DNA from: Azospirillum sp.
Lineage (GTDB): Bacteria; Pseudomonadota; Alphaproteobacteria; Azospirillales; Azospirillaceae
Assembly: GCA_027486405.1 (NCBI GenBank)
Contig: JAIXPD010000053.1
Location: 1-64,000 of the forward strand
Reading direction: 5' to 3'
Length of the DNA: 64,000 nucleotides
In this document: positions 10,086-50,651 of the stretch, in pieces
Numbering within the stretch: the stretch's first letter is position 1
Layout: every line of letters starts with the position of its first letter
Position numbers and translations under genes: made by a program
The notes under the pieces: generated by a model
The model's database searches: none
The model's input: only the letters and a program-made list of their open reading frames with translations
Told to the model about the DNA's origin: nothing

Positions 10086-10100
10086 GGCGGACGGGAGACG

Positions 10101-10715
10101 TCAGACTCCCAACCGCTCCCGTTCCGCCGCCAGCGCGCGGAACCAGTGGAGTTTTTCGGCGTAGGGCAGGCGGGCGAGGCCGCTGGGCGACGGGAGGACG
10201 AGGTCGGTGATGCCGGGGAACAGGGAGGTGTCCTGCACGCCCCACGGCGCGTCGGGGCGGCCGCTGGCGGCGAGGTAGACGCCCTTGCCGGTGTGGGCGA
10301 GGATGGCGGGGCGCACCGCCGCGACGATGCGGGCCAGACGGGGCAGACCGGCGCGCAGCTCCGCCCGGCTCAGTTCGGCGGCCGACGCGGTGGCGCGGGC
10401 GACGAGGTTGGTGGAGCCAAGGCCGAAGCCGGGCAGCAAGCCATCCTCCTCACAGCGCAGCAGGCGCGGGGTCAGGCCGGACTCGGCCAGCAAGCGCCAG
10501 AACTGGTTTCCCCGCCCGGAATAATGATGCCCCAACGCGCCGGAGCGCAAACCGGGGTTGAAGCCGACGAACAGCACGGCCAGATCCGGCCCCAACACAT
10601 CGGGCAACGGACCATCTTGGAGGGGGCCATCTTCGGGGTGGCCATTTTGGGGCGGGCCATCCGGCGGCGGGACCCCAGCCAGGGCGCGGGTGTCTGCGGT
10701 GGGGCGGTCGGTCAT
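10101..10715 (-). CDS. mug: Mug-type G/U mismatch DNA glycosylase
   Basis: A 204-residue uracil-DNA glycosylase family 2 member that removes uracil or thymine opposite guanine. Visible: the active-site-type GFNPGLRSG near residue 50, HHYSGRGNQFW near 62 and the DNA-intercalating-loop region LPSPSGLARLPYAEK near 170. Residues 15-40 contain an odd Asp/Gly/Pro repeat (PPDGPPQNGHPEDGPLQDGPLPD) with no family counterpart. The ATG at 10715 overlaps the stop of the LysR gene upstream (ATGA), so the two are co-translated. It ends facing parB with 15 bases between. Confidence 0.82.
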   Translation of the reverse strand: MTDRPTADTRALAGVPPPDGPPQNGHPEDGPLQDGPLPDVLGPDLAVLFVGFNPGLRSGALGHHYSGRGNQFWRLLAESGLTPRLLRCEEDGLLPGFGLGSTNLVARATASAAELSRAELRAGLPRLARIVAAVRPAILAHTGKGVYLAASGRPDAPWGVQDTSLFPGITDLVLPSPSGLARLPYAEKLHWFRALAAERERLGV

Positions 10716-11674: not shown

Positions 11675-12140
11675 GCCCCGACTGTAGCATGATCCGGCGC
11701 GCGCGCGGCAACGGGCGGGGTAACGGGGGGCGCCATCGTTTGACCGGGGGATCATCGCCACGCACACAAGATTGGACACGGATTTCACGGATTCTTCTCA
11801 CGGATTTCGCGGAACGCGTCTCAGAACGATCCTGTTTGCGATCTTGCGACACGCCTCATGGTGGGATGAGTGAGGCGTTTGGGGGCGAAAGTCCGTGAAA
11901 TCCCTCATTCTGTCCGTGAAATCCGTGTCTGTTCTTGCTTGCATGAGGATGATCGCTCGTTCAAGCGATTGCCCTGAAGCGACTGGGGGCAAACCGGGCC
12001 GGGCGCTGGCATGGCGTGCGCTGGCATGGCGTGGCGCGCAACAACTCCCTGCGTCCGGCGCGCGTTCCGCCGGTGGTAAGGGCGGGCATAGGCTGGGGCA
12101 ACCGCCGCGCTGCGGCCCTCTCACAACCGGATACCCGACC
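11675..12140. other. Intergenic region with nested inverted repeat
   Basis: The 466 bases between the divergent LysR and MFS genes contain the large dyad described separately at 11775-11929. They also hold a GC-rich stretch with the duplicated string GCGCTGGCATGGCGT near 12003-12035. The open frame starting at 11895 runs through this region into the MFS gene, but its residues have no protein character, so I treat the gap as non-coding. Confidence 0.6.
11775..11929. repeat. 155-bp nested inverted repeat (cruciform)
   Basis: GACACGGATTTCACGGA at 11775-11791 has its exact reverse complement at 11913-11929. Inside it, CACGGATTTCGC (11799-11810) pairs with GCGAAAGTCCGTG (11886-11898) with one bulge. 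At the centre, ACGCCTCA (11851-11858) pairs with TGAGGCGT (11871-11878). The arms also contain a direct repeat of the core CACGGATTTC. No T-run follows, so a simple terminator does not explain it. It could be a REP-like element, a protein-bound cruciform or a structured RNA. Confidence 0.75.
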
Positions 12141-28314: not shown

Positions 28315-29247
28315 TCAAGGGGCGGAGCGGACCTTGACGACGAAGGAGTCGACCGCGACACCCAGCCGGGCCGATTCCCCGACCAGCCCGTCCGCCGCCG
28401 CCAGCACGCGGTCGGCGATGGTCCCGGTGTCGCTGGCCCCCTGCATCACCTCGTCGATGATGACGCGGACGTCGTCGGCACCGCTGGCCGCCCGGCTGGC
28501 GCTTTGGGCGATGTCCTGAGTGGCCTGGCTTTGCTCCGTCACCGCCGTGCTGATCGCGCCGGAGATTTCCGACATGCGGGTGATGACGCCGCCGATGCCG
28601 TGGATGGCGTCGGTGGCCTTCGCGGCGGCGCGGATGCCGTCGATCTGCCGCTCCACCCCCAGGATCGCGTCGGAGGTCTGGCGCGCCAGCGCCTTCACCT
28701 CCTGCGCGACGATGGCGAAACCGCGCCCGGCGTCGCCCGCGCGGGCGGCCTCGATGGTGGTGTTCAGCGCCAGCAGGTTGGTGCGTCCGGCGATGGCGTC
28801 GATCAGGCGGACCACCTCGCCAACCCGTTCCGCCGCCGTCAACAGCTCGTCCATCGCCGCTTCGCAGCGGCGCGCCCCGGCCACGGCGTGTTCGGTGACG
28901 GTCGCCTTCAGCGCGTCCAGATCGCGTTTGAGGAAGGCGAGATTCTCGGGATCCTCCTCGGCGACCATTTCGCGCACCAGCCCGCTGATCGACCGCACGG
29001 CCCCAGAGGCGACATACGCCGCCTTGCCGCGTTCCGACAGATCGACCACCCGCTGGTAATCGTCCTTGATGAGGCCGCTTTGCGCGATGCCGTACCACGA
29101 CATCGCCAGCGACACCCCCATCATCACCACCAGCGGAACCACGATCTTCACCACGATCGGCAGATGGTTCCATGGCGCGGCCAGACGGCGGGCGACCACC
29201 GCCGCCGCACCGGCCAACCGCCGACCACCGGAGAGCAGAGCGCGCAT
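28315..29247 (-). CDS. Shortened methyl-accepting chemotaxis protein
   Basis: A 310-residue chemoreceptor with one N-terminal membrane segment ([21 protein letters not shown], residues 33-53) and the first part of a four-helix-bundle-like sensor. The conserved signalling tip ([25 protein letters not shown]) and the returning helix follow. A second membrane segment, a HAMP domain and most of the descending signalling helix are absent: only about 27 residues separate the sensor from the tip, where more than 150 are usual. With one membrane segment, the tip would face the same side as the sensor. I infer an in-frame internal deletion and doubt that it signals normally. Confidence 0.75.
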
Positions 29248-29265: not shown

Positions 29266-29418
29266 TCAAGCCTGCGCCGTCATGCGGCCAGGGCGCGGCG
29301 GATCGTCCAGCGTCAGATCCACCAGGGTCAGGCGTTCGCACGCGTCCTCGGCCAGCAGCCGACGGGTCAGCGCTTGGCCGACGAAGCCGTTCGCGCCGGT
29401 GACAAGGATGTGTTTCAT
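29266..29418 (-). pseudogene. NAD-dependent epimerase fragment (N-terminus)
   Basis: Fifty residues starting MKHILVTGANGFVGQALTRRLL, the classic Rossmann opening of extended short-chain dehydrogenases/epimerases (TGxxGFVG), and then a stop after about 50 residues. The family normally runs to about 300. The ATG overlaps the stop of the upstream chimera (ATGA), so the operon junction is intact and the loss is at the 3' side. The rest of the gene does not appear in any frame before the chemoreceptor, so this is a remnant. Confidence 0.75.
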
Positions 29419-30227
29419 GCCGTCCACCCGCTGGCCAAGCTGTTGCCTGTGGCGTCTTTGTCGGTCGTGTTTTTGCCGGTGGCGGCTGGCGTCTCGGTCA
29501 CTGGGGACGCGCCGCCGGGCAGCAGCAGATAGGCCAGGGCGGGCAGCAGGACGAGCGCGCCGACCATGTTCCACAGGAACATGAAGGCCAGCAGGATCCC
29601 CATGTCAGCCTGGAATTTGATGTCGGAAAAGGCCCAGGTGGCGACGGCGGCGGCCAGGGTGACGCCGGTCAGGATCACCACCTTGCCGGTGAAGATCAGC
29701 GCCCGGTAATAGGCTTCGGACAGCCCCATCCCGGCCCGCATCATCGCCAGCGTCACCGACAGGATGTACAGCGCGTAATCGACGCCGATGCCCACGCCCA
29801 GCGCGTTGACCGGCCGTTGCGCCGACACGCCCGGCGCGTTGGCGGCCTCCGCCGCGAAGGACAGCGGGCGGGACGTGGTGACACGGAACCCCAGCGCGAA
29901 GCCCAGATCGTCCACCGTCTCCAGCGACCCGTCGGCCAGCCAGCGCACCGCGCGGTCGCGGCCCAGTTCCGCCGCGATGGCGTCCAGCGTGGCGGCGTCG
30001 GCGACGCCATAGATGGTTTTGCGCAGGGTGCTGGCGGTCGGCAGCGGCGGCGGCAGGGACGGATCGTCCCGGCGGGCCAGCAGGATGGCGGTTCCGTCCA
30101 ATCCCTCGAACCGCCCGCCATCCGGGCCGGCGTCGACCGGCGTCAGGCCGTAATCAATCAGGTAGCGCGCGCAATCGGCCACGTCGTCAACGCCGAAGAC
30201 CAGCGCGTCAAGTCCCACAATGTTCAT
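29415..30227 (-). CDS. VOC-domain / RND-exporter chimera
   Basis: One 270-residue frame made of two unrelated parts. Residues 1-140 look like a glyoxalase/bleomycin-resistance (VOC) domain of the two-module type (MNIVGLDALVFGVDDVADCARYL; DDLGFALGFRVTTSRP); the residue usually His in GLDHLVFG is Ala. From about residue 141, the sequence NALGVGIGVDYALYILSV, the following segments and GILLAFMFLWNMVGALVLLP are the last membrane segments of an MMPL/RND-type exporter. The junction is near base 29800. Both parent proteins should be far longer (about 300 and 800-1000 residues). An in-frame deletion joining two neighbouring genes is the simplest explanation. Confidence 0.72.
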   Translation of the reverse strand: MNIVGLDALVFGVDDVADCARYLIDYGLTPVDAGPDGGRFEGLDGTAILLARRDDPSLPPPLPTASTLRKTIYGVADAATLDAIAAELGRDRAVRWLADGSLETVDDLGFALGFRVTTSRPLSFAAEAANAPGVSAQRPVNALGVGIGVDYALYILSVTLAMMRAGMGLSEAYYRALIFTGKVVILTGVTLAAAVATWAFSDIKFQADMGILLAFMFLWNMVGALVLLPALAYLLLPGGASPVTETPAATGKNTTDKDATGNSLASGWTA

Positions 30228-30243: not shown

Positions 30244-31404
30244 TCAAAGTGCCGTGCGACCGCCGAGCGTTTCGGCAACCCAATCGGCGATGAAATGGCC
30301 AGCGTTGATGCTGTTGTCGAAGCTGGAATGCTGAACGCCGCCTTCGCGGTCGGTGAAGATCTTCAGCGCGCGCTTGGGGCTGTTGACCAACTGTTCGTAG
30401 GTGCGGTGCGCCCATTTCAGCGGGATTTGCGAATCCTTTTCGCCGTGCGTCACCAGGAACGGAACCGTGATCCGGTCCAGCACGCCGTCGAGATGGACGT
30501 TTTCGGCGATGCGCATGAAATCGTCGAGGTCCGTCGCCCCCCACACCCATTGGACATGCGCCCAATAATGGGGAACCGGGAAATTGCCCTCGCGCTCCAG
30601 ACGGCGCTTTTGCACGTCGCGCCAGTCATGGTTGGCCCCCCACACCACGCCGCAAGCAAAGCGCGGCTCGAAGGCGACGGCGCGCGGGCAGTAGTAGCCG
30701 CCCAGCGACACCCCTTCCAAACCGATGCGGGTGGGATCGACCTCGGGCCGGGTTTCCAGCCAATCGACGACGCGGCTGGCCCAATGCTCGCTGTCGTACC
30801 GCGCGGTCAACCCCTGAAGGCGCAGCGCCTCGCCCGTGCCCGGCTGGTCGACGATGAGGGAGGAGACGCCGCGCTTGGCCAGCCAGGCGGGCAGCCCGAC
30901 CCGGTGTTTCATCTCCTTGGTCGAATCCAGCCCGTTCACCTGGACCAGCAGCGGGGCCGGGCCGGCAACGCCCGGTGCGCGCACATACAGGGCCGACAGA
31001 TGGGTGTCGCCATAGGGGATCTCGACGCGCTCGCAGGTTTCACCCGACAGCGCCACCCCCTTCTGGAACAGCTCCAGGTGACGGCGGTACAGCGCCACCC
31101 GCCCCGGCGTGCCGTGGGCCTGCAACCGTTCGCAGGTGATGAGGTAGGTGGCCGCGCGGCTGTATTTCTCGCCCGCCGACAGCAAGCGGCCCTGCTGCTC
31201 GTCCTCCTCCGCCAACCCGCAGAGCGTGTTGGCCATGGCTTCCCAGACATCGCGGAACGCCTGGGTTCCGGTGGCGTCGGGCTGCTTGGCGGCCTCCTGC
31301 AACGGTTCGCACATCGCCGCGATCTCGCCGATGCGCGCGCCCATTTCCAAGGCGAGGTTGATGGACAGGTCCCAGCCGTAGTTGGTGGGGAAGTATCGAA
31401 ACAT
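30244..31404 (-). CDS. Alpha/beta hydrolase, FrsA/DHPON-hydrolase-like
   Basis: A 386-residue hydrolase with a helical N-terminal cap and an alpha/beta fold. Visible: VQVNGLDSTKEM near residue 160 (oxyanion region), SSLIVDQPGTGEALR near 190, the nucleophile elbow GVSLGGYY near 238, the acid region LVTHGEKDSQIP near 318 and the His in SINAGHFIADW near 370. The layout resembles C-C bond or ester hydrolases such as 2,6-dihydropseudooxynicotine hydrolase. The start at 31404 gives MFRYFPTNYGW. Gene order DUF1302-DUF1329-hydrolase-VOC suggests a role in degrading a hydrophobic compound. Confidence 0.8.
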   Translation of the reverse strand: MFRYFPTNYGWDLSINLALEMGARIGEIAAMCEPLQEAAKQPDATGTQAFRDVWEAMANTLCGLAEEDEQQGRLLSAGEKYSRAATYLITCERLQAHGTPGRVALYRRHLELFQKGVALSGETCERVEIPYGDTHLSALYVRAPGVAGPAPLLVQVNGLDSTKEMKHRVGLPAWLAKRGVSSLIVDQPGTGEALRLQGLTARYDSEHWASRVVDWLETRPEVDPTRIGLEGVSLGGYYCPRAVAFEPRFACGVVWGANHDWRDVQKRRLEREGNFPVPHYWAHVQWVWGATDLDDFMRIAENVHLDGVLDRITVPFLVTHGEKDSQIPLKWAHRTYEQLVNSPKRALKIFTDREGGVQHSSFDNSINAGHFIADWVAETLGGRTAL

Positions 31405-31474
31405 GGGATCCTCGGGACAGGTCATTTTGGTGGACGCGGCCGGGGGCTGGACGCCGCCCGGCCGCTGGACCGGG

Positions 31475-32833
31475 TCAGCGCACGCCTTCGCCCGCCATGG
31501 CGTCCGGCGTGAACACCCGATCCGGGAAGGGCGGCTTCACCGCGTAATGGACCGGCTGGGCGTTGTAGAGGTTGGCGACATAGGCCGACCCGCCCAGCAG
31601 ATCGTTCATCCCGAACGCGCCGGTGACGGTCCCCGGCAGATCGGGGGCGACGAAGGTTTGCGTCCACAAGGTGCGCCACAACTGGCCGTTCGCGTCCCAG
31701 CGGTCGGCCAGCACGCAGGCCCAGGTGTCCTCGTCGCAATAGTAGCGGCTGCGCGTCGTCTGGTGACGGGCACCGGCCCGCAACGTCGCCTCCACCACCC
31801 ACACCCGGTGCAGTTCCCACCGCACATGGTCGGGATTGAGATGGTGCGCGCTCAGCACCGCTTCGTCCTTTTGCGGCTGAAGCAGGCGGTTGCCGTTGTA
31901 GGGGATGTACATCTCCTGCTTGCCCAACAGCTTCCAATCGAAGCGGTCGAGACGCCCGGTGAAGCTTTCGATCTCGTCGAAGGTCATCACCCCCGCCGTC
32001 GCCGGGGTCGGGGTGTCGCAGCACGGGTTGGGCAGCTTGCGCACGCGGCGCTGGCCGGTCAGATAGACCCAGCTTTGCGATTTGGAGCCGTCGATCTGCT
32101 CGCGCCCGACGATGGCCTCGCCCGCGCGGATCGGCGGGCCGTTGTTGACCAGCCGGACCATCCAATATTCGCCGCGCTTGGCGAACTCCTCCGGCGAACC
32201 GTCGGGCAGGTAATAGGGCATCTGCTGGTCGGCGGCCCCGACCGTGGTCAGCACGGCGTTGCCGGCGCTGGTCAACTGGTATTGCGTGACCTGCCACTGG
32301 GCGGCGGTCCCGCGCCAGCGCAGGATGTGGTTCCACATCACCTCCGCGCCCGAGGACGGGATGGGGAAGGGCACGCCGCCATAGGCCCCTTCGACCAGAT
32401 CGCCGTTCAGGCGGGCGCGGGTGGCGTTCTTGGCGGTGTTGTCATACACCCATTGCGGTGCGGCGGCGGTGCGGTGGGTCTTGTAGACGTCGATCCGAAA
32501 GCTGTCGGGGTATTTGGCCAGCATGGCCTTGGCCCCGTCGGTCAGCTTGTCGGCGTGTTGGCCGACGGTCTTCTGGCTGATCGAGAACAGCGGCTTTTCG
32601 TCCTTGAACGGATCGCCGCGCCGTCCGCCGGGAACATCGCCCGCGATCGGGGTGGTGTGGCCGCCGGTCCAGGCGGGGATGGTCCCGTCCTTGTTGCCCG
32701 CCTTTTCCGCGCCGAACGGGGTCAGGCTGGTTTTCAGCTTGGCCACCGGATCGGCCGACACCTGCGCGACGGCCGGACCAGCCAGGCAGAGCGCCGCGAC
32801 CATGGCGGCGCACAGGGGATAACGCGTCTGCAT
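31475..32833 (-). CDS. DUF1329 family outer-membrane-associated protein
   Basis: A 452-residue protein with a clear signal peptide (residues 1-23, ending GPAVAQV), then the DUF1329 pattern: FGAEKAGNKDGTIPAWTGG near residue 40 and ARLNGDLVEGAYGGVPFPIP near 145. DUF1329 proteins have a LolA/LolB-like fold, accompany DUF1302 proteins and RND exporters, and are implicated in uptake or handling of lipids, steroids and other hydrophobic substrates. Twelve bases separate it from the DUF1302 gene upstream, so both are in one operon. The usual RND partner survives only as a fragment (29415-29800). Confidence 0.9.
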   Translation of the reverse strand: MQTRYPLCAAMVAALCLAGPAVAQVSADPVAKLKTSLTPFGAEKAGNKDGTIPAWTGGHTTPIAGDVPGGRRGDPFKDEKPLFSISQKTVGQHADKLTDGAKAMLAKYPDSFRIDVYKTHRTAAAPQWVYDNTAKNATRARLNGDLVEGAYGGVPFPIPSSGAEVMWNHILRWRGTAAQWQVTQYQLTSAGNAVLTTVGAADQQMPYYLPDGSPEEFAKRGEYWMVRLVNNGPPIRAGEAIVGREQIDGSKSQSWVYLTGQRRVRKLPNPCCDTPTPATAGVMTFDEIESFTGRLDRFDWKLLGKQEMYIPYNGNRLLQPQKDEAVLSAHHLNPDHVRWELHRVWVVEATLRAGARHQTTRSRYYCDEDTWACVLADRWDANGQLWRTLWTQTFVAPDLPGTVTGAFGMNDLLGGSAYVANLYNAQPVHYAVKPPFPDRVFTPDAMAGEGVR

Positions 32834-32845
32834 TCTGGGGGTTCC

Positions 32846-34519
32846 TTAAAAAGTCCGGCTGACCGTCAGGGCGACGAAATCGCGGTCCTTCAGCGATTGC
32901 TTGAAGGAGACGTGGTTTTGCGAGTCGACGAAGGTGCCTTCCGGGCCGAAATAGTGGGTGTAGCTGAGGCCCATCTGCCAGGTGTTCTCATAGACACCCT
33001 TCAGGCCGATGCTGAGATCGCCGACGCGGTTGCCGTTGACCGCCGTGCCCAGGGCTGCGGAATTGCCCATGCCAAAGCCGAAGCCGACCGGCACCGACAG
33101 ATCCAAACCGGGCAGCGCCTGGCGGTAGGACGGTTCGTAGACCATGCGCAGGTTGCAGGCGTCGCGGTTGGCGTTGGGGTTCAGCGCGGCGGCGTTCTTC
33201 GTCACCTTCAGCACGCGGTTGCAGGCGAATTCCCCCAGGAACGAGGCCTCCTCCGCGACAAAGCTCGGCGGCAGGCTGGCCAGCCACGACACTTGCGCGT
33301 GGGCGGTGCGACCGACGGCGTAGAGCGGGTTCGCGTCGTTGTCGCCCGCCGCCGTCGGCCCGCCGAACCGGCTGGGCACGATGCCGAACAGATCAAGTTG
33401 CGCGTTGCTGGCCAACGGCATGTTGGTCCGCATCGAGGCTTCGCCCGCGATGTTGAACATGCCGATGGTGTGGCTGAAGCTGGCCCCGACCGTGCGGATG
33501 TTTTCGGGATAGACCCACAGGAATTGGCTGGGCACGCTGGTCCCGGTCATCAAGCCGCGCAGGTAGGGCTGCGGCGACTTGTCGTGATACTGCATGGCGT
33601 ACAGACCGACATCGGTCTCGCCGATCTGGAAACGCGCCTGGACGCCGCCCTGGCCGGAGTTCTTGGCGCGGATGTCGGCGGCGCGGCTGGCCCAGAAGGG
33701 GCCGACATTCATCCGTTCCGCGCCCGACCCGAAATTGTCCGACGCGGAAAAATAGCTGCCGGACCCGGCAAAGCGGTTTTCCTCCCACCGGAACTGATAA
33801 TAGACCCCGATCGACAGATCCGGTGAGATCTGCCATTGGCCGGACATCTGTTCGACCGGACGGACCAGCTCCTTGAACTGGGTGTTCGGCACCGACTGGC
33901 CCTTGACGATGTCGATGGGGGCCATGGCGGCGGCCACGCCGTTCGCGCCAAAGAACAGGCTTTCACCCCATTGCAGGGCGTAGCGCCCGACGCGGAAGGA
34001 GGCGGTCGTGTCCTCGATGTTGACCTTGCCGAAGGCGAAGGCGTCCAGCAGTTCGGCGTTGCGGCCGTGCAGGCGCTGCGTGTCCTTGGTGAAACTGGTG
34101 GAGGACACCGACCGCTGGTTCGCGGTCCGGGGGGAATCGTTGTCGTTGGAGCGGTTGTAAACGGTGTCGTACCAGCCAGCCCCGCTGACGCGCACGCCGA
34201 AGCCGCGATACACCACGTCCAGTTCCGACAGCAGATCGACGCGGTTGGAAATCAACCCGCGATCGAAGTTGCGGTCGCCGTCGTCGAAGTTCGCCGATCC
34301 CTTCAGCGTGGACGACGCGTCCTTGACGCGGGCGGCGGCGCTGTATTTGGCCGTCGTGTCCCAACGGATTTTGACCTCGGGGTTGCCGCTGTCGATTTCA
34401 AAAGCCTGTGCGGCCGGCAGGGCCAGAACGCTCCCCGCGCACAAGGCCAGGGCGCAGGCGATGGACCGGCGCGCCCGTCGCGCGCGCCGCTGTGCAACAG
34501 TCTTCACGAGACCCCCCAT
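32846..34519 (-). CDS. DUF1302 family outer-membrane protein
   Basis: A 557-residue protein with an Arg-rich N-terminus and signal peptide to about residue 40 (LCAGSVLALPAAQAF), then the DUF1302 opening of an amphipathic beta-strand protein (VKIRWDTTAKYSAAARVK; LISNRVDLLSELDVVY). It ends in the Phe-terminated strand VALTVSRTF typical of outer-membrane barrels. The start at 34519 was chosen because upstream residues are not signal-like. First gene of the operon. An inverted repeat CAATCAC-N6-GTGATTG at 34559-34578 lies just before it. Confidence 0.9.
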   Translation of the reverse strand: MGGLVKTVAQRRARRARRSIACALALCAGSVLALPAAQAFEIDSGNPEVKIRWDTTAKYSAAARVKDASSTLKGSANFDDGDRNFDRGLISNRVDLLSELDVVYRGFGVRVSGAGWYDTVYNRSNDNDSPRTANQRSVSSTSFTKDTQRLHGRNAELLDAFAFGKVNIEDTTASFRVGRYALQWGESLFFGANGVAAAMAPIDIVKGQSVPNTQFKELVRPVEQMSGQWQISPDLSIGVYYQFRWEENRFAGSGSYFSASDNFGSGAERMNVGPFWASRAADIRAKNSGQGGVQARFQIGETDVGLYAMQYHDKSPQPYLRGLMTGTSVPSQFLWVYPENIRTVGASFSHTIGMFNIAGEASMRTNMPLASNAQLDLFGIVPSRFGGPTAAGDNDANPLYAVGRTAHAQVSWLASLPPSFVAEEASFLGEFACNRVLKVTKNAAALNPNANRDACNLRMVYEPSYRQALPGLDLSVPVGFGFGMGNSAALGTAVNGNRVGDLSIGLKGVYENTWQMGLSYTHYFGPEGTFVDSQNHVSFKQSLKDRDFVALTVSRTF

Positions 34520-34961
34520 TGAATGATTGCGTTCCGGCAGCGGTCGCGCGCCATCGATCAATCACCACCCTGTGATTGGAACGACTGTGTGATTGGCGGC
34601 GCTGCGCTTCTGGAACCATCAGCCCCCCAGACTCTCGCAGGAAAACCGCAAGGATGATCTGGGAATGTCCGGTTTCTCTAGAGTGTCTGGCGTGACGATC
34701 TTTGATGGATTGTCATGGTTTGTCTCTTCCCTATGGGTTTTGATTGCGACACCGCTGCCTTGTCCGCATGGAAGGCCGGGAGCAACTTGCGGGTTCGATT
34801 GTTGTTTCAAAAACCATAGGGGCAAAAAATTGCTTAGACGAATGATTATTTTCCATTTGACATATTGATACGGTGAATACCTCATGGGGGACCCATCTCA
34901 AACGAGGATGGACAACCCCAGCAATCCGTGACACCCAGCGGTTTCGCGGTTCAGGAACGCC
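34520..34961. promoter_or_regulatory. Divergent promoter region, DUF1302 / LysR
   Basis: A 442-base gap, A/T-rich from 34640 to 34880. CAATCAC-CACCCT-GTGATTG (34559-34578) is a dyad, and its right half GTGATTGG recurs 17 bases further at 34589-34596. This is the sort of array a LysR protein binds beside its target promoter. TTGACA at 34856-34861 could be a -35 element for the LysR gene, but I see no matching -10. Confidence 0.5.
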
Positions 34962-35873
34962 ATGCGGTTCAAACGTCTGGATTTGAATCTTCTCGTCGCG
35001 CTCGACGCCCTGCTGCGGGAGCGGAACGTCAGCCGGGCCGCCGACGGTCTGAACCTGTCGCAATCGGCGATGAGCAACGCCCTGGCCCGCCTGCGGGATT
35101 ACTTCAACGACGATCTGTTGGTGCAGGTCGGGCGCAAGATGGAATTGACGCCGCAGGCCGAAAGCCTGGCGGAATCCGTGCGCGACATCCTGTTGCGGAT
35201 CGACACCGCCATCGCCGTGCAGCCGGATTTCGTCCCGGCGGAGTCCAAACGAACCTTCACGCTGCTGGTGTCGGAATACACCACGACGGTGCTGATTCCC
35301 GCCCTGCTGTCGCTGGTGCACCGGGAGGCCGAACACATCGCTTTCCGCTTCCTGCCCCAGACCGGCTCGCCCGAAGCGATGCTGACCAGCGGCGACGCCG
35401 ATCTGCTCATCATGCCGGAGGCGTTCATCCCGCCCGGCCATCCGTCCGAACCGCTGTACGAGGATGATTTCTCCTGCGTGGTCTGGCGCGACAGCGCGGC
35501 GTTCGGCGAGACGCTGAGCGTTGACCAGTATCTGGCGGCCCCGCACATCATCACCGAATTCACCACGGCCCGTGTGTCCTACGAAGGCTGGTTCATCAAG
35601 CGTCATGGGGTGGAGCGGCGGATCGCGGCGATCACCCCCAGCTTTCTCACCCTGTGCCCGCTGGTGGTCGGGACCGATTGCGTCGCGACGGTGCATTCGC
35701 GCATCGCCCGTCAGGCCGCGCGCGCCCTGCCGATCCGTCTGCTTCCCACGCCGATGGAGATTCCCACGCTGGTGCAGACGGTGCAGTGGCACAAATACCG
35801 CTCGCAGGATCCCGGCCTGAGATGGTTGCGCCACCGCTTGCAGGAGGCCGCGCGCCTGATCCAAACCCAGTGA
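34962..35873 (+). CDS. LysR-family regulator, NodD/PcpR-like
   Basis: A 303-residue LysR protein starting MRFKRLDLNLLVALDALL, with HTH ERNVSRAADGLNLSQSAMSNALARLR and the LTPQAESLAESVRDIL linker seen in NodD/PcpR-type regulators of aromatic or flavonoid-responsive genes. It is divergent from the DUF1302-DUF1329-hydrolase operon, so it is probably its activator. It ends 28 bases from the stop of the convergent monooxygenase gene. Confidence 0.88.
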   Translation: MRFKRLDLNLLVALDALLRERNVSRAADGLNLSQSAMSNALARLRDYFNDDLLVQVGRKMELTPQAESLAESVRDILLRIDTAIAVQPDFVPAESKRTFTLLVSEYTTTVLIPALLSLVHREAEHIAFRFLPQTGSPEAMLTSGDADLLIMPEAFIPPGHPSEPLYEDDFSCVVWRDSAAFGETLSVDQYLAAPHIITEFTTARVSYEGWFIKRHGVERRIAAITPSFLTLCPLVVGTDCVATVHSRIARQAARALPIRLLPTPMEIPTLVQTVQWHKYRSQDPGLRWLRHRLQEAARLIQTQ

Positions 35874-35901
35874 TCCGGGCCGTCGTTCCGCCGCCGCCGG
35901 G

Positions 35902-37083
35902 TCAGGAGTAGAAGCCCGGCTCCGGCAACGCCCCGGCCAGCGCCCAGACGCCCAACTCCTTCAGCTTGTAATCAAGTGGGTCGTGCAGGGAGTGGGTGCG
36001 GATGTTGCGCCAGAAGCGGTCGAAGCCGTGGCGGGCGGCGGCTCCGCGCGCCCCGGTGATGTCGAACAGGCGGCTGGCGGTGTCCAACCCGGCGCGGGCG
36101 GCGGCGAGCTTGAAGGTGGCGATGACCAGCGCGGCTTCCCCCCGCTCCGCCGCCTCCAGGCCCCGGCCCCGGTTCCAGGCGGTTTGCAACCGGTCCAGCG
36201 CGACACCGCCCAGCGCGTCGGCGGACGCGATGGCGAGCTGCGCCTCCCCGATGTGGTGGAGCAGATAGGGATCCTCGGCGGCGGTGGCCACGCCCGACGC
36301 GCGCCAGGGCCGCCCATCGGTCAGGGTGAAGTCGCGCGCCGCCGCCAGCGCCCCTTCGGCGATGCCCAGATACAGGCTGGCCAGAATGGCTTGGGCGATG
36401 CAAGGGCGCAGGCTGCTGGCGACGTCGCCGAACGGTCCCGGCGGCCCCAGCAGGTCGGACGCCGACACCGCCACCTCGGTGAAGCTGACGGTTCCGCTGT
36501 CGGTCTGGCGCTGGCCGATGGCGTCCCAATCGTTGTGAACGGTGATGCCCGGCCGGTCGGTGGGCAGCGCCAGCACCCGCAACACGCCGTCCGGCCCGTC
36601 CGCCGACACCAGAAGCCGGTCGGAATCGGTGGCTCCGGAGCAGAAGCTCTTGATGCCGGACAACACCCACCGATCCTCGCCGGATGGGGTCAGGGCGGTG
36701 CGCCGGTCCAGCGGATTCAGCGCGTTGCCCCAGAACAGGTTGCGCCGCGCGGTGGCGGTCAGCAGCCCGGCCCGTTGGGTCGGGTTGGCGTAGAGCAGGA
36801 CCGAGGCGATCATCAGATGCTGAAAGGCGAACAGATGCGCCAGGGAGGAATCCACCCGCGCCAGCGTCCGCACCGCGCCCAGAATGGCGGGCCAGTCCTC
36901 GCCCGCACCGCCATACGCCTCCGGGATCGCCAGCGACAGCAGGCCGGAGCGGCGGATCGCGTCGCGTTCCGCCTTGGCCGTGCCGCCCGCCCGGTCGCGG
37001 GCGATGGCGGTTTCGGCCAGATGATGGCACAGGGCGTCCAGCGCCGCGCGACGCTCCGGGGTGGACAGGGGAGCCGGACTCAC
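35902..37083 (-). CDS. SfnB/DszC-like flavin monooxygenase
   Basis: A 393-residue protein of the acyl-CoA-dehydrogenase fold. Visible: RSGLLSLAIPEAYGGAGEDW near residue 52, FSGIKSFCSGATDSD-type FMN region near 145 (ALTPSGEDRWVLSGIKSFCSGA), and the C-terminal NIRTHSLHDPLDYKLKELG, the hallmark of the SfnB/DszC flavin-dependent monooxygenase group rather than dehydrogenases. These use reduced FMN on organosulfur compounds. The GTG start (37083) overlaps the ssuD stop (GTGA). Third gene of the operon amidohydrolase-ssuD-this. Confidence 0.85.
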   Translation of the reverse strand: MSPAPLSTPERRAALDALCHHLAETAIARDRAGGTAKAERDAIRRSGLLSLAIPEAYGGAGEDWPAILGAVRTLARVDSSLAHLFAFQHLMIASVLLYANPTQRAGLLTATARRNLFWGNALNPLDRRTALTPSGEDRWVLSGIKSFCSGATDSDRLLVSADGPDGVLRVLALPTDRPGITVHNDWDAIGQRQTDSGTVSFTEVAVSASDLLGPPGPFGDVASSLRPCIAQAILASLYLGIAEGALAAARDFTLTDGRPWRASGVATAAEDPYLLHHIGEAQLAIASADALGGVALDRLQTAWNRGRGLEAAERGEAALVIATFKLAAARAGLDTASRLFDITGARGAAARHGFDRFWRNIRTHSLHDPLDYKLKELGVWALAGALPEPGFYS

Positions 37084-48700: not shown

Positions 48701-49960
48701 ATGAGCGTTGCCGTCCTCGACACAGCCGCCGCTCAGGCCGCCACCCCGCCGGGGGTGCCCGGCCTGCCGCGCCCGACCACCCCCGCCCACATCATCCGGG
48801 ACGACGCCGAAGCCATTGCGGTGGCCCAGGCGCTGGCCCGCGACGTCATCGCCGGAGCGGCCAAGCGCGACCGCGACCGCATCCTGCCGGTGGCGGAACT
48901 GGATGCCTTTTCGCAGAGCGGTCTGTGGTCGATCAACGTGCCCAAGGCCTTTGGCGGGCCGGAGGTGTCCTACGCCACCCTGTCCAAGGTGGTGCAGATC
49001 GTGGCGGCGGCGGATCCGTCGCTGTCGCAGATCTCGCAAAATCATCTCGGCGTGGTCGCCGCCATCCGCACCGTGTCGGACCCGGCGCAGCAAAGCCTGC
49101 TGTTCGGCGAGGTGCTGAAGGGCGTGCGCTTCGGCAACGCCTTTTCCGAGTTCGGGACCAAGCGCGCGGTCGATTTCGCCACCCGCTTCACCGACGCGGG
49201 CGATCATGTGATCGTCACCGGGCGGAAATTCTACTCCACCGGGGCGCTGCTGGCCCATCTCGTCCCCATCGTCGCGGTGGATGACGAGGGGCGGGCCTGG
49301 TACGCCATCGCCGACCGCAACGCCCCCGGCCTGACGGTGATCGACGATTGGTCCGGCTTCGGTCAGCGCACCACCGCCAGCGGCACGGTGATCCTGGATC
49401 GGGTCAAGGTGCCGAAAACCCATCTGGTTCCCGGTTACAAGGGCTATGAAACGCCGACCGCCGACGGCGCGATCTTCCAGATCATCCAGGTGGCGGTGGA
49501 CAACGGCATCGCCGAGGCGGCGATCCGCGACGCCATCGAGTTTGTGCGCACCCGCAGCCGTCCGTGGGTGGACAGCGGGCAGGACCGGGCGTCGGACGAT
49601 CCCTACACCATCCAGGCGGTGGGCCGCCTGACGCTCCGTCTGCACGCGGCGGAGGCGTTGCAGGACAAGGCCGGGCGCGCGGTGGACGTCGCCGTGGCCA
49701 ACCCCAACGCCGACACGGTCGCCGCCGCGCAGTTGGCGGTGGCCGAGGCCAAGATCCTCAGCACCGAAATCGCGCTGGAGGCCAGCAGCACCCTGTTCGA
49801 ACTGGCAGGCACCCGCTCCACCCTGGCCGATCACAATCTGGATCGCCATTGGCGCAACGCCCGCACCCACACCCTGCACGATCCGGTGCGCTGGAAATAC
49901 GCCATCCTCGGCAACCACGCGCTGAACGGTGTCAACCCGCCGCTGCACGCCTGGAGCTGA
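48701..49960 (+). CDS. sfnB: SfnB family sulfur acquisition oxidoreductase
   Basis: A 419-residue acyl-CoA-dehydrogenase-fold flavoprotein of the SfnB family: SGLWSINVPKAFGGPEVSYATLSKVVQIVAAADPSLSQISQNH near residues 67-110, RFGNAFSEFG near 144, and the C-terminal RNARTHTLHDPVRWKYAILGNHALNG. SfnB accompanies sfnG in dimethylsulfone regulons, and its exact reaction is not established. Last gene of the operon. A GC hairpin at 49991-50012 lies just downstream. Confidence 0.92.
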   Translation: MSVAVLDTAAAQAATPPGVPGLPRPTTPAHIIRDDAEAIAVAQALARDVIAGAAKRDRDRILPVAELDAFSQSGLWSINVPKAFGGPEVSYATLSKVVQIVAAADPSLSQISQNHLGVVAAIRTVSDPAQQSLLFGEVLKGVRFGNAFSEFGTKRAVDFATRFTDAGDHVIVTGRKFYSTGALLAHLVPIVAVDDEGRAWYAIADRNAPGLTVIDDWSGFGQRTTASGTVILDRVKVPKTHLVPGYKGYETPTADGAIFQIIQVAVDNGIAEAAIRDAIEFVRTRSRPWVDSGQDRASDDPYTIQAVGRLTLRLHAAEALQDKAGRAVDVAVANPNADTVAAAQLAVAEAKILSTEIALEASSTLFELAGTRSTLADHNLDRHWRNARTHTLHDPVRWKYAILGNHALNGVNPPLHAWS

Positions 49961-49990
49961 TTCCGCTTGGCGCAGGCCGACGCGGCCCTT

Positions 49991-50012
49991 GGCCCGTGTT
50001 CACCCACGGGCC
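49991..50012. terminator. Bidirectional hairpin between sfnB and msrQ
   Basis: GGCCCGTG-TTCACC-CACGGGCC is a perfect eight-base stem between two convergent genes. No T-run follows on either side, so it may need Rho or serve as a 3' stabiliser. Confidence 0.55.
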
Positions 50013-50027
50013 GGGGACCGCGCGGCG

Positions 50028-50651
50028 TCACGCCCTGGCGGCGCGGCTGTTGGGCAACCGCACCGGCCAGCGGCGGAAGGCCAGCAGGCCGATGCACAGC
50101 GCGCCATAGACCAGCGGCGCGCTCTGCCAGCCCTTCACCAGCATCAGGAAATGCAGGCACCCGGCCAGCCCGGCGAGGAACACGCCCCGGTGCAGCGCGC
50201 GCCAACGCTTGCCGCCCAACCGCTTGACCATGCCATCGGTGGAGGTGGCGGCCAGCGCGGTCAGGATGACGAAGGCCCCCATGCCGATGGTGATGTAGGG
50301 GCGCTTCAGGATCTCCTTGCCGATGGCGGGCCAGTCGAAAAACTGGTCCAGCCCGACATAGGTCAGCAGATGGACGCTGGCGTAGAAAAAGGCGAACAGC
50401 CCCAGCATCCGGCGGAAGCGGGCCAGCGCCGCGACCCCGGTGAACAGCCGCAGCGGCGTCAGCGCCAGCGCGATCAGCAGAAAGCGCAAGGCCCACAGGC
50501 CGCTTTGCTTGACGCTTTCCAGGATCGGTTCGGCCCCCAGTTCGCCGGTCCAGGCCAGCCACACGGTCCAGACCAGCGGAACCAGCGCCAGGGCGAAGAC
50601 CACGGGTTTGGCCCAGCGGGACAGCAGCAGGGTGTTCAGCGTCGCGCGCAT
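50028..50651 (-). CDS. msrQ: MsrQ heme membrane subunit
   Basis: A 207-residue membrane protein with about six segments, in the ferric-reductase-like YedZ/MsrQ family. It has GLWALRFLLIALALTPLR near residue 50, RRMLGLFAFFYASVHLLTYVGLDQ near 80 (heme His), and KRWRALHRGVFLAGLAGCLHFLMLVK near 145. It passes electrons from the respiratory chain to MsrP for repair of oxidised methionines in periplasmic proteins. It starts two bases after the msrP stop. Confidence 0.93.
   Translation of the reverse strand: MRATLNTLLLSRWAKPVVFALALVPLVWTVWLAWTGELGAEPILESVKQSGLWALRFLLIALALTPLRLFTGVAALARFRRMLGLFAFFYASVHLLTYVGLDQFFDWPAIGKEILKRPYITIGMGAFVILTALAATSTDGMVKRLGGKRWRALHRGVFLAGLAGCLHFLMLVKGWQSAPLVYGALCIGLLAFRRWPVRLPNSRAARA

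Follow-up and report, generated by a model that had tools for sequence, protein, structure and literature searches.

Results

The window analysed here comprises 64,000 nucleotides of contig JAIXPD010000053.1 from the Azospirillum sp. assembly GCA_027486405.1. On its minus strand lies an open reading frame (ORF) of 270 amino acids (29415..30227), in which the head of a VOC protein is joined to the tail of an RND/MMPL exporter. The ORF starts with an ATG at 30227..30225, ends with a stop codon at 29417..29415 and retains a ribosome-binding-site-like GGCAGGGGACACCCGATG ahead of its own start. Sixteen bp upstream, on the same strand, an intact gene for an alpha/beta hydrolase (prolyl oligopeptidase / FrsA-like; 30244..31425) is located, and beyond it follow intact minus-strand genes for a DUF1329 protein (AmeB-type; 31475..32833) and a DUF1302 protein (AmeA-type; 32846..34561).

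Both parents of the ORF are truncated. The VOC part consists of the N-terminal ~141 codons (29805..30227) and the RND part of the C-terminal ~130 codons (29415..29800), which cover only the last hydrophobic segments, while the intact partners in A. griseum measure 315 and 827 amino acids, respectively. In alignments with A. griseum and A. cavernae, residues 1-146 are 95-97% identical to the VOC N-terminus and residues ~136-270 are 92-95% identical to the RND C-terminus. The in-frame fusion described in the first-pass annotation is thus confirmed in its coordinates and residue split, and the join indeed falls inside a string that both proteins share in similar form, RPVNALGV in VOC and LPVIALGV in RND. 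Pfam detected only MMPL in the ORF, where residues 141-235 correspond to model positions 208-302 of 333. This is part of one lobe of a full-length, two-lobed MMPL protein; the intact RND homologue comprises two MMPL stretches. No VOC family was found by Pfam in the ORF, because the Glyoxalase domain, which occupies residues 156-268 of the intact VOC protein, has been removed. As this recognisable domain is wholly gone, the ORF does not qualify as a VOC protein.

In A. cavernae, A. griseum and Azospirillum sp. B510 both genes are whole and lie on the same strand, 8.2-8.3 kb apart, within one operon. In the direction of transcription the intact order is DUF1302, DUF1329, alpha/beta hydrolase, VOC, Rieske, FAD-dependent oxidoreductase, SMP-30, cyclase, FAH, YCF48-like, RND, epimerase and methyl-accepting chemotaxis protein (MCP); in B510 this locus resides on plasmid pAB510c (AZL_RS26450 to AZL_RS26520). 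The order DUF1302-DUF1329-RND-VOC, which had been assumed for intact loci, has to be corrected: the hydrolase precedes VOC, and the genes from Rieske through FAD, SMP30, cyclase and FAH to YCF48 separate VOC from RND. B510 carries two extra genes between RND and epimerase, encoding a ring-hydroxylating dioxygenase alpha subunit and a PDR/VanB-family reductase. By DNA similarity the pair is kept in A. cavernae as well, and its absence from A. griseum and from the window (29429-29511) probably reflects an older loss common to these two.

Comparison with the intact loci of the three relatives located the deletion ends where they had been predicted, at ~29800. This junction A coincides with a 24-bp imperfect direct repeat (29791..29814): similarity to the RND side reaches up to ~29814 and similarity to the VOC side sets in at ~29789, and each flank runs on unbroken with its intact homologue, the two homologues lying apart in the relatives. 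The deletion amounts to 8,285 bp if compared to A. griseum and to 8,236 bp if compared to A. cavernae, which bears out the earlier proposal that several kilobases, including most of the exporter gene, were lost, with the ends in a short repeat common to both genes. The window lacks ~84% of the RND gene, the 3' half of the VOC gene and, between them, the genes for Rieske, FAD oxidoreductase, SMP-30, cyclase, FAH and YCF48. The two repeat copies are identical at 21/24 positions in A. cavernae and at 20/24 in A. griseum. Such agreement was not attained by any of ~9,500 random position pairs in the locus, and 21/24 is reached by just 7 of 62.6 million pairs there; the repeat is therefore far above chance. 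Exact identity between the ends extends over 9 bp at most within either relative, and in the ancestor the exact overlap may have been up to about 15.

Within 0.9 kb of junction A, two more private deletions have gutted the epimerase and the chemotaxis receptor genes. At junction C (29295..29304), 812-824 bp were lost from inside the NAD-dependent epimerase gene, leaving a truncated minus-strand remnant of 50 amino acids (29266..29418; intact homologue about 320). At junction B (28894..28898), an in-frame deletion of 816 bp removed the HAMP domain and adjacent parts from the MCP gene on the minus strand (28315..29247), which now encodes 310 amino acids, while the intact homologue comprises 599 including HAMP. 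The ends of both junctions have 5-6 bp in common exactly, as much as 3-11% of random pairs in the locus reach; measured against such pairs, neither junction shows significant microhomology or, in contrast to junction A, a direct repeat beyond chance. The MCP remnant has lost one codon and bears, in its hairpin motif, a private change from Ala to Thr at a position occupied by Ala in 24/24 other MCP motifs read. Private residue changes in the fusion number one in the VOC head and none in the RND tail.

The same fusion was found neither in 81 other genomes of the order nor in 60 other class-wide relatives; among the 82 genomes of the order and the 61 relatives, the own genome included in each, only the own genome matched residues 1-270 in one stretch. 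It was absent from 78 public loci as well, where the VOC match was full length wherever a VOC gene was present. Conservation in several genera, which the first-pass annotation had named as the mark of a functional gene, was thus looked for and not encountered. A Ramlibacter locus (L038) that matched residues 1-249 was rejected as a second fusion, since RND and VOC are separate neighbouring genes there. The deleted 8.3 kb are absent from the rest of the 5.49-Mb assembly, in which long matches were limited to paralogues at ~72% or less, and no separate contig was found to hold the missing DNA. Among plasmid records none covered 80% of the region, the best match being the intact pAB510c.

In its intact form the locus has the four components of AmeABCD of Castellaniella defragrans, an HAE3-type RND monoterpene exporter cassette composed of DUF1302 (AmeA), DUF1329 (AmeB), a photosystem-II-assembly-like protein (AmeC) and RND (AmeD) (PMC6394551). 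With YCF48 lost and RND truncated, the window locus no longer holds the four genes of such a cassette. Another contig of the same genome (C31) carries an intact paralogous DUF1302-DUF1329-YCF48-RND cassette, which is of the AmeABCD type by its gene families.

Several other features of the contig and the assembly were observed. A MITE-like repeat family of ~247 bp, with terminal inverted repeats of ~63 bp (CAGGGCAATCGCTTGA...) and apparent target duplications of ~9-13 bp, has copies in the window (11732-11976) and at L131:13010-13270, L132:8086-8332, L133:7666-7913, L134:17604-17853, L141:1689-1936, L142:7639-7888, L147:1571-1819 and L151:1-211. Its insertion sites differ between the own genome and A. 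griseum, and copies lie at or close to the contig ends of C2, C24 and C26. Another short element, ~200 bp in size and largely palindromic (TACGGCATTCACACATC...), is present in several copies (L136:4010-4210, L132:10266-10467, L137:14187-14387). At window ~35863-35906 the match switches from A. cavernae contig C1 to C3, pointing to an inter-replicon rearrangement or a chimeric join, and a second synteny break was seen at ~49960-50040, where adjoining stretches have their counterparts on opposite strands of A. cavernae C3, ~75 kb from each other. At ~10090-10110, 2.5 kb of A. griseum are absent, with no obvious direct repeat at the join.

Discussion

The ORF at 29415..30227 is very likely a recent deletion scar, a broken remnant of a catabolic operon that has been lost. 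The ancestor would have possessed the row DUF1302-DUF1329-hydrolase-VOC-Rieske-FAD oxidoreductase-SMP30-cyclase-FAH-YCF48-RND-epimerase, followed by the MCP gene, and this row would have encoded an apparent ring-cleavage-type catabolic pathway together with an AmeABCD-type exporter. Slippage or recombination between the two ~24-bp imperfect repeat copies in VOC and RND would have removed ~8.3 kb, while the reading frame across junction A was presumably kept by chance. Two further deletions, possibly later ones, disrupted the genes for the epimerase and the MCP. Tolerance of the loss may be explained by a dispensable pathway and by the second AmeABCD-type cassette present in the genome. One mechanism does not cover all three junctions, as B and C lack significant microhomology: with only 5-6 bp exact at their ends, recombination between short repeats accounts for junction A and is not shown for B and C. 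The two additional private deletions beside junction A strengthen the reading as a deletion. The earlier observation and its interpretation are correct and are slightly extended here.

It is rather unlikely, yet deserves to be weighed, that an assembly or amplification artefact produced the fusion, with the intact operon still in the cell and 8.3 kb plus two ~0.8-kb stretches left out of the assembly. The assembly is 93.7% complete, compared to 99-100% in most congeners, three deletions inside 0.9 kb are unusual, the fusion parts show no decay, and at ~35866 the contig continues with sequence found in A. cavernae on a different contig. However, k-mer assemblers need overlaps longer than the exact matches found at such junctions, which within either relative span at most 9 bp at A and 5-6 bp at the other two. 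Nor does any leftover contig hold the deleted DNA. When about 150 kb from two other contigs were aligned to A. griseum, each side had gained and lost sequence, in several cases mobile elements, but no comparable cluster of clean gene deletions emerged, and the idea of an assembly flaw riddling the whole genome with such deletions was consequently rejected. The private changes in the MCP remnant, one of them at a conserved site, likewise speak against an artefact and suggest relaxed selection on a real remnant. For the fusion itself the data do not show relaxed selection: one plus zero private changes indicate that the event was either recent or an artefact, and the near absence of decay would fit both.

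Few changes, together with an open frame behind three intact genes that has its start and ribosome-binding site intact, might instead be taken as signs of a new protein under selection, formed by a one-step in-frame deletion that tethered the VOC N-terminal domain to the membrane by the RND tail. We regard this as highly improbable. A recent event predicts few changes as well, the fusion occurs in one genome only, it has lost the recognisable Glyoxalase domain as well as most of RND, and two other gutted genes adjoin. An ancestral joined gene, from which the separate genes of the relatives would be derived, can practically be dismissed: nothing was found in its favor, while VOC and RND are separate at the same locus in three congeners and separate and full-length in the other loci read from Alpha-, Beta- and Gammaproteobacteria. 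The ORF very likely represents ordinary genome decay and not a new functional protein.

Two-domain type I extradiol dioxygenases hold their metal ligands in the second domain. In the ORF no VOC domain can be recognised any more, and of RND it keeps only the last membrane segments, without periplasmic loops; we infer that it confers neither VOC catalysis nor transport activity and is very probably a non-functional relic. As the VOC start and ribosome-binding site are kept, it may nevertheless be transcribed and translated from that start, so that a fusion protein may be made. The locus shows clearly how an operon can decay through several deletions, of which one joined short repeats of two unrelated genes. 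It is a warning as well that an intact-looking ORF may be a scar, for which annotation as a fusion enzyme is unwarranted. The strain is predicted to be unable to use the operon's substrate.

Deletions between short direct repeats can arise by replication slippage. Junction A likewise ends in a short imperfect direct repeat, while the neighbouring junctions B and C differ from such deletions in lacking these repeats. Compared to the intact loci on pAB510c of B510 and in A. griseum and A. cavernae, the window retains the gene order, with a DNA identity of ~82-98% flanking the deletions; however, the VOC, Rieske, FAD, SMP30, cyclase, FAH, YCF48, RND, epimerase and MCP genes, all whole in these relatives, are lost or truncated in the window. 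AmeABCD of Castellaniella defragrans resembles, by its component list, an intact form of the window locus with all four components, whereas the window has lost the AmeC-type gene and has the AmeD-type gene reduced to its tail. The complete cassette on contig C31 may have made the loss of the window operon tolerable.
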